A stretch of 64,000 bases of DNA from Haloterrigena turkmenica DSM 5511 (GTDB taxonomy: Archaea; Halobacteriota; Halobacteria; Halobacteriales; Natrialbaceae). Where the stretch lies: NCBI RefSeq assembly GCF_000025325.1, contig NC_013743.1:2294001-2358000 (forward strand), given 5' to 3'. Of this stretch, positions 37,445 through 40,226 are shown one piece after another (the first letter of the stretch is position 1; the number at the start of each line of letters is the position of its first letter). A program made the translations under genes and the position numbers. The notes beneath the pieces were generated by a model that saw only the letters and a program-made list of their open reading frames with translations, was not told the DNA's origin and made no database searches.

Positions 37445-38365
37445 TCAGAGGATCCGGTTCCCGAACGCGCTCGCGGTGAGTTCGGCCGCGATGGTCGCCG
37501 TCTCGTTGCCCTCGTCCAGGATCGGGTTGACCTCGACGACGTCCATCGATCGGAGGATCCCCTCGGCCGCGTGACGTTCGGAAACCGTCTCGAGTGCGGC
37601 GTGGGCCTCCCGGTAGGTGACGCCCCCCCGGACGGGCGTGCCGACCCCCGGCGCGGTCTTGGGATCGACCCAGTCTAGGTCGAGACTGACGTGGACGCCG
37701 TCGGTGCCGTCGGTCGCGACATCGAGGGCGTCCTCGACGACGGCGGTCATCCCGCGCTCGTCGATGTCGGCCATCGTGTACGCCGTCATCTCGCTGTCGC
37801 GGACCAGTTCGCGCTCGTGCTCGTCGATGCTCCGGAGTCCGACGTAGGCGATCGACCCCTCGCGGACGCGCGGCGCGCGGGCCCACGACAGGTCGCCGAA
37901 GGCGCCCCGCCCCAGCGTCGCGGCCAGCGGCATCCCGTGGACGTTGCCGCTGGGCGAGGTCTCGGGCGTGTTGAGGTCCGCGTGGGCGTCGAACCAAATC
38001 GCGCCGAGGTCCGCTTCGCGGGCCGAACCGCGCATCGAGCCGATCGCGACCGAGTGGTCCCCGCCTAGGACGAGCGGAAACTCGCCGTCTGCCAGGGCGT
38101 TCGCGACGCGCTCTTCGAGTCGCGTACTGACGTCCTCGACCTCGCGGAGGAACTTCGCCGTCCCCTCGATCGGCCCGTCGGTGTTCGGATCGCGCTCTTC
38201 GGCCCGCGGAATCAGGAGGTCGCCGTCGTCGACGGCGGTGACGCCGGCGTCCGAGAGCCGATCGGCCACCTCGGCGTATCTGATCGCCGACGGTCCCATG
38301 TCCACGCCGCGACGATCCGCCCCGTAGTCCATCGGCGCGCCGATGATTCTGACGGTCGTAGTCAT
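37445..38365 (-). CDS. rocF: Arginase
   Basis: The 306-residue ureohydrolase hydrolyses arginine to ornithine and urea. The manganese-binding motifs are complete: GGDHS near residue 99, DAHADLNTP near 125, and the late Asp pair in SLDLDWVDP near 225. The overall pattern (PMDYGADRRGVDMGPSAIRY at the start) is closer to arginase than to agmatinase. It is encoded after the NDH-2-like gene on the same strand but with its own 5' region. Confidence 0.9.
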   Translation of the reverse strand: MTTTVRIIGAPMDYGADRRGVDMGPSAIRYAEVADRLSDAGVTAVDDGDLLIPRAEERDPNTDGPIEGTAKFLREVEDVSTRLEERVANALADGEFPLVLGGDHSVAIGSMRGSAREADLGAIWFDAHADLNTPETSPSGNVHGMPLAATLGRGAFGDLSWARAPRVREGSIAYVGLRSIDEHERELVRDSEMTAYTMADIDERGMTAVVEDALDVATDGTDGVHVSLDLDWVDPKTAPGVGTPVRGGVTYREAHAALETVSERHAAEGILRSMDVVEVNPILDEGNETATIAAELTASAFGNRIL

Positions 38366-38425
38366 ACGTCGCCTTCGTTTCCCGGCGATTTGACAGTGGC
38401 GATAGAGACGGCGACAGCTTTAGGG

Positions 38426-38439
38426 TTAGACCCGTCTAA
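38426..38439. promoter_or_regulatory. Inverted repeat before the metalloregulator gene, probable operator
   Basis: TTAGAC-CC-GTCTAA is a perfect six-base inverted repeat twelve bases before the ATG of the DtxR/SirR-type gene and adjacent to the TATA-like CTTTAGGG. A very similar repeat stands in front of the ZIP transporter gene. Position and symmetry fit autoregulation by this dimeric repressor. Confidence 0.55.
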
Positions 38440-38450
38440 ATCCGACCACG

Positions 38451-39131
38451 ATGATGCTGAGCGACGTGATGGAGGACTACCTCAAGACGATCTATCAGCT
38501 CCAGCGCGAGACCGACGACCGGATCAAGACGTCAGCCATCGCCGACGAGCTGGACGTCACGTCGCCGACCGTCACCAGCATGCTCGACAAACTCGAGGAG
38601 CGCGGGCTCGTCGACCGCGAAAAGTACAAGGGCGTCACCCTGACCGACGAGGGCGTGACCGTCGCGCTCGAGGTCGTCCGCCACCACCGGCTGCTCGAGG
38701 CCTATCTCACCGAACACCTCGACTACGACTGGGCAGAGGTCCACGAGGAGGCCGATCGACTCGAGCACCACATCAGCGAGGACTTCGAGGCCCGCGTCGC
38801 GGACGTCCTCGGCGAGCCGTCGGTCGACCCCCACGGAGCGCCGATCCCCGGCGCCGACCTCGAGCCGCCCGAACGTCCCGAGGGCGAATCCGTCACCTCG
38901 TTCTCGGCGGGCGACACCGTGATCGTCGAGGAGGTCGCCGACCGCGACGCCGACGTCCTCTCTTATCTCGCCGAGCACGGGGTCAGACCCGGCGTCGAAC
39001 TCGAGATCGTCGAGGTCGCTCCCTTCGGGATGATCACCGCCCGCTCGAGCGACCACGACGCCGACGTCTCCCTCCCCGAGTCCATCGCCCACCATGTCCG
39101 CGTTACCGAGCCTCCGGAAGTCGAGCAATAG
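38451..39131 (+). CDS. sirR: DtxR/SirR-family metal-dependent transcriptional regulator
   Basis: The 226-residue regulator has an N-terminal winged helix (MEDYLKTIYQLQRETDDRIK, recognition helix DVTSPTVTSMLDKLEERGLV), a dimerisation/metal domain (VVRHHRLLEAYLTEHLDYDW, then EEADRLEHHISEDFEARV) that includes His and Glu ligands seen in MntR/DtxR proteins, and a C-terminal FeoA/SH3-like domain (DTVIVEEVADRDADVLSYLA). At the second N-terminal metal position Lys replaces the Glu of MntR, closer to SirR/IdeR. It probably senses Mn or Fe. Neighbouring ZIP transporter and matching operators suggest a regulon. Confidence 0.9.
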   Translation: MMLSDVMEDYLKTIYQLQRETDDRIKTSAIADELDVTSPTVTSMLDKLEERGLVDREKYKGVTLTDEGVTVALEVVRHHRLLEAYLTEHLDYDWAEVHEEADRLEHHISEDFEARVADVLGEPSVDPHGAPIPGADLEPPERPEGESVTSFSAGDTVIVEEVADRDADVLSYLAEHGVRPGVELEIVEVAPFGMITARSSDHDADVSLPESIAHHVRVTEPPEVEQ

Positions 39132-39180
39132 TCTACTGTTGTGGATGCACGTACACTAGAACCACCGTTCTCTCCCTCGA

Positions 39181-39195
39181 TTAGATTGGATCTAA
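39181..39195. promoter_or_regulatory. Inverted repeat before the ZIP gene, probable metalloregulator operator
   Basis: TTAGAT-TGG-ATCTAA is a perfect six-base inverted repeat with three-base spacer located about 20 bases before the TATA-like CTATAATC at 39215-39222. It closely matches the repeat in front of the sirR-like gene and probably binds the same regulator. Confidence 0.55.
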
Positions 39196-39296
39196 CGGAT
39201 ATTTCGTGGAAAAGCTATAATCTTAGCCTTCTCTAATCGTCTTTCGATGAGGCGTCGAGTTCGCGACGACGGCGCCGGCAGAGGTGACCTCGAGTC

Positions 39297-40226
39297 GTGA
39301 CTCGGCCATCGCCATTGACGGTGCCGAAATGGCTGCAGGCGGTCGGGCCGGTGGCGGTTCTCGGCGCGATCGTCACCCTTCTCGCGACCACCTCGCCGTT
39401 CGAGATGCTCGCCGTCAGCGACGGCGCGACGACCCTCGAGATCCTCTGGACCGTCACGATCATCGGCACGATCGCGGGCATCGTTCCGGTCCTGATCGGG
39501 ATGTGCTGGTTCCCGATCATCCGGGAGCTCGACCCCCGGTATCTCCACGGCTTCATGACGCTCGCCGCCGGCGTCCTCGCGTTCATCGCCCTCGAGATGT
39601 TCGAGGGGATCGTCGGCTACGGCGCCGCCGCCGACCGGACGGCACTCGCCGCCGCGCTGGTGGTCGTCGGGCTCGGCGGAACGTTCCTCGCGATGTCCGC
39701 CGCCGGCGAGTGGCGACAGCGGGAGCTGGCCAGTCACGAGAATCGCGGCCTCCGGATCGCCTACCTCGTGGCGCTCGCGCTCGGCCTCCACAGCCTCGGG
39801 GAGGGGCTCGGAATCGGCGTCGCGTTCGTCCAGGGGAACGCGACCCGGGTCACGCTGCTCGTGCTGGCGTTCGTGATCCACAACGTGACGGAGGGACCGA
39901 CGATCGTCGGCGCGGTCGTCCGAGACCGATCGACGCCGCTGCGGCGTCACTTCGCCCTCATGGGCGTCCTCGCCGGCGGCCCGGTCGTGCTCGGCGGCTG
40001 GCTCGGGAGCTTCGTCAGCTCGCCGCTGCTGGCCGTGCTCTGCTATGCGGTCGCCGTCGGCGCCATCGCCCAGGTGCTCATCGAGGTGGCGGACCTCATC
40101 CGGTTCGACGCCGAGGCCGTCTTTACGCGAACCAACACCGCGACGTTCGCCGTCGGATTCGCCCTCATGTTCCTCCTCGAGGACGTCTTCGTCGGCCTCC
40201 TCGAGTCGTGGCTCGTCGCGGGCTGA
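39297..40226 (+). CDS. ZIP-family divalent metal transporter
   Basis: This 309-residue membrane protein has about eight TM helices. The metal-site motifs in the two central helices are HSLGEG (near residue 167) and HNVTEG (near residue 199), diagnostic for ZIP permeases that import Zn, Fe or Mn. The GTG start at 39297 is supported by GAGGTGA nine bases upstream. A 17-codon reading frame (39247-39300) ends exactly over this start codon (GTGA), suggesting possible translational coupling. It is located next to a DtxR-type regulator with matching operator repeats. Confidence 0.88.
   Translation: MTRPSPLTVPKWLQAVGPVAVLGAIVTLLATTSPFEMLAVSDGATTLEILWTVTIIGTIAGIVPVLIGMCWFPIIRELDPRYLHGFMTLAAGVLAFIALEMFEGIVGYGAAADRTALAAALVVVGLGGTFLAMSAAGEWRQRELASHENRGLRIAYLVALALGLHSLGEGLGIGVAFVQGNATRVTLLVLAFVIHNVTEGPTIVGAVVRDRSTPLRRHFALMGVLAGGPVVLGGWLGSFVSSPLLAVLCYAVAVGAIAQVLIEVADLIRFDAEAVFTRTNTATFAVGFALMFLLEDVFVGLLESWLVAG

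Follow-up and report, generated by a model that had tools for sequence, protein, structure and literature searches.

Inverted repeats before an MntR/SirR-type regulator gene and a ZIP-fold transporter gene suggest an autoregulated metal-uptake regulon in Natrialbaceae

The comparisons reported here suggest that a haloarchaeal MntR/SirR-type regulator represses its own gene and genes for the uptake of a metal, probably manganese, by way of short inverted repeats with the half-sites TTAGAY and RTCTAA. We put the probability of this reading, which is drawn from sequence comparison, at roughly three in four. The locus lies in a window of 64,000 nt (positions 2294001 to 2358000 of contig C1, in a genome of 5.44 Mb), and the relatives searched were haloarchaea of the Natrialbaceae. 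As listed in Table 1, an arginase gene on the minus strand is followed by a putative operator, the gene of a DtxR-type regulator (mntR/sirR, hereafter mntR), an intergenic stretch and the gene of a ZIP-fold transporter. Arginase is a manganese enzyme, and in many relatives its gene is likewise divergent from mntR, with the same operator region.

Table 1. Features of the mntR-ZIP locus, in positions of the window.
Feature	Coordinates	Strand	Sequence	Basis
Arginase gene, divergent from mntR	37445..38365	-		Pfam; intergenic region with the operator common to both genes
TATA-like element of mntR/sirR	38416..38425	+	AGCTTTAGGG	Read from the sequence; presumed promoter function
mntR/sirR operator, 14 bp, TTAGAC-CC-GTCTAA, N2 spacer	38426..38439	.	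TTAGACCCGTCTAA	Exact site; putative
DtxR/MntR/SirR-type metalloregulator, 226 aa	38451..39131	+		Pfam, PDB relatives, alignment with MntR
Distal ZIP operator, 15 bp, TTAGAT-TGG-ATCTAA, N3 spacer	39181..39195	.	TTAGATTGGATCTAA	Exact site; putative
ZIP BRE/TATA-like element	39208..39222	+	GGAAAAGCTATAATC	Equivalent stretch in the same place in relatives; presumed function
Proximal ZIP operator, 14 bp, degenerate, 2 mismatches	39223..39236	.	TTAGCCTTCTCTAA	Kept in orthologs; putative
Mini-ORF, 17 codons, stop overlapping the ZIP start (GTGA)	39247..39300	+		Architecture kept in ZIP orthologs; predicted
ZIP-fold metal transporter, 309 aa, start GTG 39297	39297..40226	+		Weak Pfam Zip match; model compared with BbZIP

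The 14-bp repeat TTAGACCCGTCTAA lies directly 3' of a TTTAGGG TATA-like stretch and 11 nt upstream of the regulator ATG at 38451, and the 15-bp repeat TTAGATTGGATCTAA lies upstream of the ZIP BRE/TATA. Both positions agree with the original prediction, which had placed one repeat next to the TATA element of the regulator gene and the other upstream of that of the ZIP gene. The pattern TTAGAYN{1,4}RTCTAA occurs in exactly three places in the whole genome, against none for the reversed-pattern control, so the proposed repeats and half-sites are real. The third site (C2:263212) is found 66 nt upstream of an operon that encodes an MCO of 419 aa, a second ZIP protein of 416 aa and a cupredoxin of 140 aa. 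An Mn riboswitch or another known RNA was considered and rejected, as positions 38300-39400 gave no Rfam match.

Exact sites with a spacer of two or three bases (N2 or N3) numbered 184 in 117 genomes of the family, against 39 for the reversed control, and at least one was present in 103 of the 117. A script classified 172 distinct sites, the other 12 being left out, for example for identical flanks. It placed 142 of them within 450 nt upstream of metal-regulator, metal-transport or pyrophosphatase genes, namely mntR (38), ZIP (29), TroA/ZnuA-type binding protein (27), CDF (22), ArsP_2 (12), MCO (8), pyrophosphatase (4) and GDT1 (2), counts that are not independent events since the genomes are related. 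The other 30 are about as many as the control predicts, and two of these (L222/L131 and L235) lie, by inspection, upstream of further GDT1 genes. The expected gathering of the motif near metal genes was thus found, both across the family and at the MCO-ZIP operon of the genome itself. The regulon of regulator and ZIP gene that had been envisaged does contain both, but its scope was drawn too narrowly, as the putative targets extend to TroA, CDF, ArsP_2 and MCO genes. The four pyrophosphatase/PadR sites may lie outside the regulon; in several genomes (L157, L180, L181, L192) an exact N3 palindrome separates a PadR gene from that of an inorganic pyrophosphatase. Two candidates were set aside: TTAGATGGTATCTAG, near phasin-like genes (L225, L303), and TTTGACGAGTCTAA, of which the genome holds three exact copies, at least two of them (L226, L228) in near-identical context, which suggests a repeat element.

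A one-mismatch search of the genome itself was dropped as independent evidence, having given 7 matches against 7 in the control and 3 against 11. An ArsP_2 gene of this genome has TTAGAGATGTCTAA (C1:3811892, one mismatch) and a CDF gene has TTAGACTGGCTCTAG (C1:399791), and by mismatch count alone these two show no excess over the control. When five further members of the genus were searched, four had the ArsP_2 site TTAGAGATGTCTAA as well, and in L229 and L307 its position at the gene was confirmed; the fifth (G005) has the related TTAGAAATCTCTAA, matched by sequence alone.

Orthologs chosen without regard to the motif provided a further test, with the same caveat that related genomes do not give independent counts. 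In the 30 best-scoring mntR orthologs of 100 genomes searched, the 14-bp N2 site was present within two mismatches in all 30 and within one in 24, always at -23 to -26, against 0.44% within two mismatches and none within one in dinucleotide shuffles. Most of these promoters also contain the TTTAGGG stretch. At the level of the order, outside the family, 11 of 20 mntR homologs have the site (at most two mismatches, -19 to -28) and nine are without it. All 13 MCO loci examined have an N2 site within two mismatches in the 400 nt upstream, a count taken with no shuffle baseline. The regulator, bound to metal that is most likely Mn(II), would dimerise on the 14-bp TTAGAY-NN-RTCTAA. As this site fills the stretch between TATA and start codon of mntR, a regulator bound there would be expected to obstruct the pre-initiation complex, with autorepression as the result. 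A placement common to all 30 orthologs lends support to the autoregulation and control of metal uptake that had been put forward.

The ZIP promoter appears to carry two operators. Among the 30 best-scoring ZIP ortholog loci, an N3 site within two mismatches was found between -130 and -76 in 26 (an N2 site in one), and an N2 site between -75 and -31 in 29 (an N3 site in none); other spacers from 0 to 5 bases occurred in 0 or 1 of the 30. Shuffled sequences gave the distal N3 site in 4 of 600 cases and the proximal N2 site in 8 of 600, the overall range being 3 to 9 of 600. The two sites are 42 or 43 bp apart, start to start, in 23 of the 30 loci, which is about four helical turns. Exact sites follow the same arrangement, with 16 N2 sites at 47-57 nt and 13 N3 sites at 89-101 nt from the start. 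In the window itself the distal site has no mismatch, whereas TTAGCCTTCTCTAA, the proximal one, immediately 3' of the ZIP TATA, is degenerate. Taken alone, TTAGCCTTCTCTAA is not significant there (40 of 100 shuffles have at least two matches at 2-mismatch tolerance); the ZIP orthologs, however, keep a site in this place. The earlier reading of this promoter was right about the distal site and missed the proximal one, together with the mini-ORF that follows it.

It could be objected that such palindromes arise by chance in AT-rich promoter stretches, and the total of two-mismatch matches in the window is indeed near the shuffle mean. The enrichment of exact sites, their placement and their conservation in orthologs rule this out, the comparative counts leaving the objection practically no credence. 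A protein bound to both ZIP sites, which would lie on the same side of the double helix, with the N2 site between TATA and start and the 15-bp palindrome upstream of BRE/TATA, would bracket the BRE/TATA and turn uptake off when metal is plentiful. In the five further members of the genus, the ZIP gene next to mntR is missing or survives only as a remnant; the corresponding place in G004 is C1:872785-872940, a relic N3-like site follows mntR in G003 (C1:3052548), and G151 has an orphan site there (L239 1501).

The ATG of the mini-ORF (39247) is 10 nt downstream of the proximal operator, and its stop overlaps the ZIP start in a GTGA at 39297-39300. The distance from the proximal operator to an ATG is 9-10 nt in 29 of the 30 ZIP orthologs; in one it is 3 nt, with a second ATG at 10. 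The mini-ORFs are 11-17 codons long and their peptides are unconserved, and in most of them an SD-like stretch precedes the start of ZIP. Stop and start overlap by 4 nt in 21 of the 30 orthologs, by 8 nt in 5 and by 1 nt in 2, with ZIP starts picked by the analyst among in-frame candidates. The named relatives, many of which are the same genomes, have the same architecture. Transcription of ZIP probably begins a few nt upstream of the mini-ORF, which would thus be near-leaderless, and ZIP could then be translated only by termination-reinitiation at the GTGA. According to PMC6728339, haloarchaeal SD motifs are unused at 5'-UTRs but serve reinitiation where genes overlap, and the nine overlapping gene pairs tested were strictly coupled. 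With SD use restricted in this way, the mini-ORF is a plausible device for the translation of a leadered ZIP mRNA. The ATGA termination-reinitiation pairs described there likewise overlap by 4 nt and have an SD-like stretch within the first of the two ORFs, whereas the upstream partner here is a mini-ORF of 11-17 codons with an unconserved peptide (PMC6728339). Similar arrangements were seen at a GDT1 gene (L222 2567 region), where an operator is followed by a mini-ORF ending at the GDT1 start, and apparently at more distant ZIP paralogs (L355, L360), where by eye a longer ORF ends at the ZIP start.

The transporter protein scored 25.0 bits against Pfam Zip, below the cut-off of 35.1, and 29.7 against a cut-off of 252 for the ZupT profile, and a profile search against PDB sequences gave no hits. 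Its AlphaFold2 model (mean pLDDT 68) matches eight BbZIP/ZIP chains at E < 1e-3 and nothing else, with E values of 7e-7 to 8e-6 for BbZIP. Residues H165/E169 and H195/N196/E199, in two central helices, are invariant in 10 relatives. The annotation of Natronorubrum bangense lists its homolog as hypothetical.

The regulator has, by Pfam, an N-terminal DNA-binding domain, a metal/dimer domain and a FeoA domain, the scores of 73.0 bits for Fe_dep_repress and 98.8 bits for Fe_dep_repr_C both being above the cut-offs. Its residues D9, D102, E105 and H106 align with D8, E99, E102 and H103 of MntR and with M10, C102, E105 and H106 of IdeR, and Lys12 aligns with Glu11 of MntR. The aligned D9, D102, E105 and H106, which we take to be the regulatory metal ligands, are hard (Asp/Glu) ligands of the MntR type and favour manganese, unlike the Met and Cys of the IdeR/DtxR type. 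Because the cut-offs of the NCBIfam MntR equivalogs were missed (217.6 against 350 for NF047407 and 72.5 against 138 for NF003025), MntR is used here as a functional description and not as an equivalog label. It is rather improbable that the sensed metal is iron, or manganese together with iron, in place of manganese alone. The MCO coupled to a ZIP protein does recall yeast, where MCO-coupled uptake is typical of iron. Moreover, DtxR proteins often bind iron, and PMC11349517 discusses the Haloferax volcanii paralogs SirR, TroR and Idr in the role of iron regulators. Against iron stand the Asp/Glu ligands, and also a separate TTAGG...CCTAA site elsewhere in the genome, close to a second DtxR-like gene and a dpsA-like gene, so that iron control may reside there. 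The sequence at that place, TTAGGCTTACCTAA (C1, about 737107, near DtxR-like and Dps-like genes), looks iron-type.

The one-base difference between the two spacers, which had been singled out as worth attention, is systematic by class and position and is not noise. Exact sites are exclusively N2 for mntR (38/38), TroA/ZnuA (27/27) and ArsP_2 (12/12) and nearly so for MCO (7 of 8), and exclusively N3 for CDF (22/22) and pyrophosphatase (4/4). All 30 CDF orthologs match the N3 pattern within two mismatches, in the general form TTAGA-N5-TCTAR, and the element overlaps the TATA-like stretch and ends shortly upstream of the ATG.

How the two spacings are read bears directly on the model. CDF products are usually exporters, and it is hard to see why Mn-bound MntR should repress an exporter; the N3 site may therefore be that of a different protein. 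There could then be two regulators with common half-sites, MntR acting on the 14-bp sites only and a second metal-responsive protein acting on the 15-bp sites of CDF genes and as a second input at ZIP, a possibility that we take seriously while holding it to be the minority one. The clean division of spacers among target classes (mntR, TroA and ArsP_2 with N2, CDF and pyrophosphatase with N3) is in its favour, and so is the sixth half-site base, which is T in 18 of 26 for N3 ZIP sites and C in 63 of 76 for N2 mntR sites and 26 of 32 for N2 ZIP sites; the TTAGA-N5-TCTAR element of the CDF orthologs also dispenses with the inner Y/R. Yet N3 and N2 sites are paired at a set distance in ZIP promoters and adjacent in one MCO promoter (G132), which fits one protein or close partners, and an examination of the two other DtxR-like loci yielded no candidate second regulator whose own promoter carries an N3 site. 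Exporter is a frequent label for GDT1 and ArsP_2 genes too, and that these have N2 sites near the start counts against the proposed model. One could also imagine a spacer code, in which a single MntR in different metal states or dimer arrangements would repress uptake from 14-bp sites and produce the opposite output (CDF), or a second ZIP state, from 15-bp sites; both, on one face of the DNA round the TATA, would make a two-state switch to which the mini-ORF adds a translational layer. This is speculative and, in our estimation, quite improbable.

The distal ZIP site might, alternatively, activate the gene under metal scarcity instead of aiding repression. Positions upstream of BRE/TATA are common for activators in archaea; the distal ZIP site is at such a position, and TroA sites too lie upstream of their TATA-like stretch. 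A dual activator/repressor role is mentioned for one family member in PMC1779511. The distal site is, however, absent (within two mismatches) in 4 of 30 ZIP orthologs, and it is the proximal one that is kept in 29 of 30, so that we regard activation as an unlikely role.

Repression by an autoregulated MntR of itself and of uptake targets, the reading preferred here, is ordinary in kind and has good backing from the comparative counts, and it is the design of the ZIP promoter that is uncommon. The novelty seems to consist of the two-operator geometry and the mini-ORF, the rest following the logic of Halobacterium SirR. That protein belongs to the same DtxR family, is also haloarchaeal and reportedly combines autorepression with control of Mn uptake: it is described as an Mn(II)-dependent autorepressor whose deletion, with Mn present, raises zurA/zurM/ycdH mRNA (PMC3600143, PMC1779511). 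TroA/ZnuA-type ABC genes, comparable with these SirR targets, are the third-largest class of sites here (27). The present case differs in its ZIP and MCO-ZIP targets and in the defined 14-bp and 15-bp sites, such an operator not being described for SirR in the available portions of PMC3600143 and PMC1779511. In Halobacterium, moreover, the motif found for the target bicluster of SirR fitted the upstream region of sirR itself poorly (PMC1502140), which argues against a simple transfer of SirR logic.

Other systems share parts of the arrangement. The MntR of Bacillus subtilis has Mn-type ligands in common with the window protein by alignment, as well as, reportedly, the repression of uptake; the window protein differs in its additional FeoA domain and in Lys12 for Glu11. 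Leyn and Rodionov in 2015 are said to have found, by comparative genomics, palindromic DtxR-type sites before archaeal ZIP, NRAMP and TroA genes; if so, their archaeal MntR/DtxR regulons resemble the present one in the palindromes before ZIP and TroA genes. Martinez Pastor in 2024 reportedly described the TroR/Idr/SirR iron network of Haloferax volcanii. That network also places haloarchaeal DtxR paralogs on metal genes but is iron-centred (PMC11349517). Thaumarchaeal MCO1 likewise has an MCO beside a ZIP-like gene, an adjacent zinc/iron permease; it is discussed for copper (PMC7785015), whereas the operon here has a putative MntR operator and a cupredoxin gene downstream.

Taken together, these features develop a hunch about a single locus into the proposal of a haloarchaeal metal regulon that can be tested and whose targets, the MCO-ZIP-cupredoxin operon among them, are named. 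They tie a one-base change in operator spacing to promoter position and target class, and they suggest what a ZIP-like gene annotated as hypothetical in public records is likely to do. The paired putative operators round an archaeal TATA, together with the conserved mini-ORF, may offer a handle on combined transcriptional and translational control.
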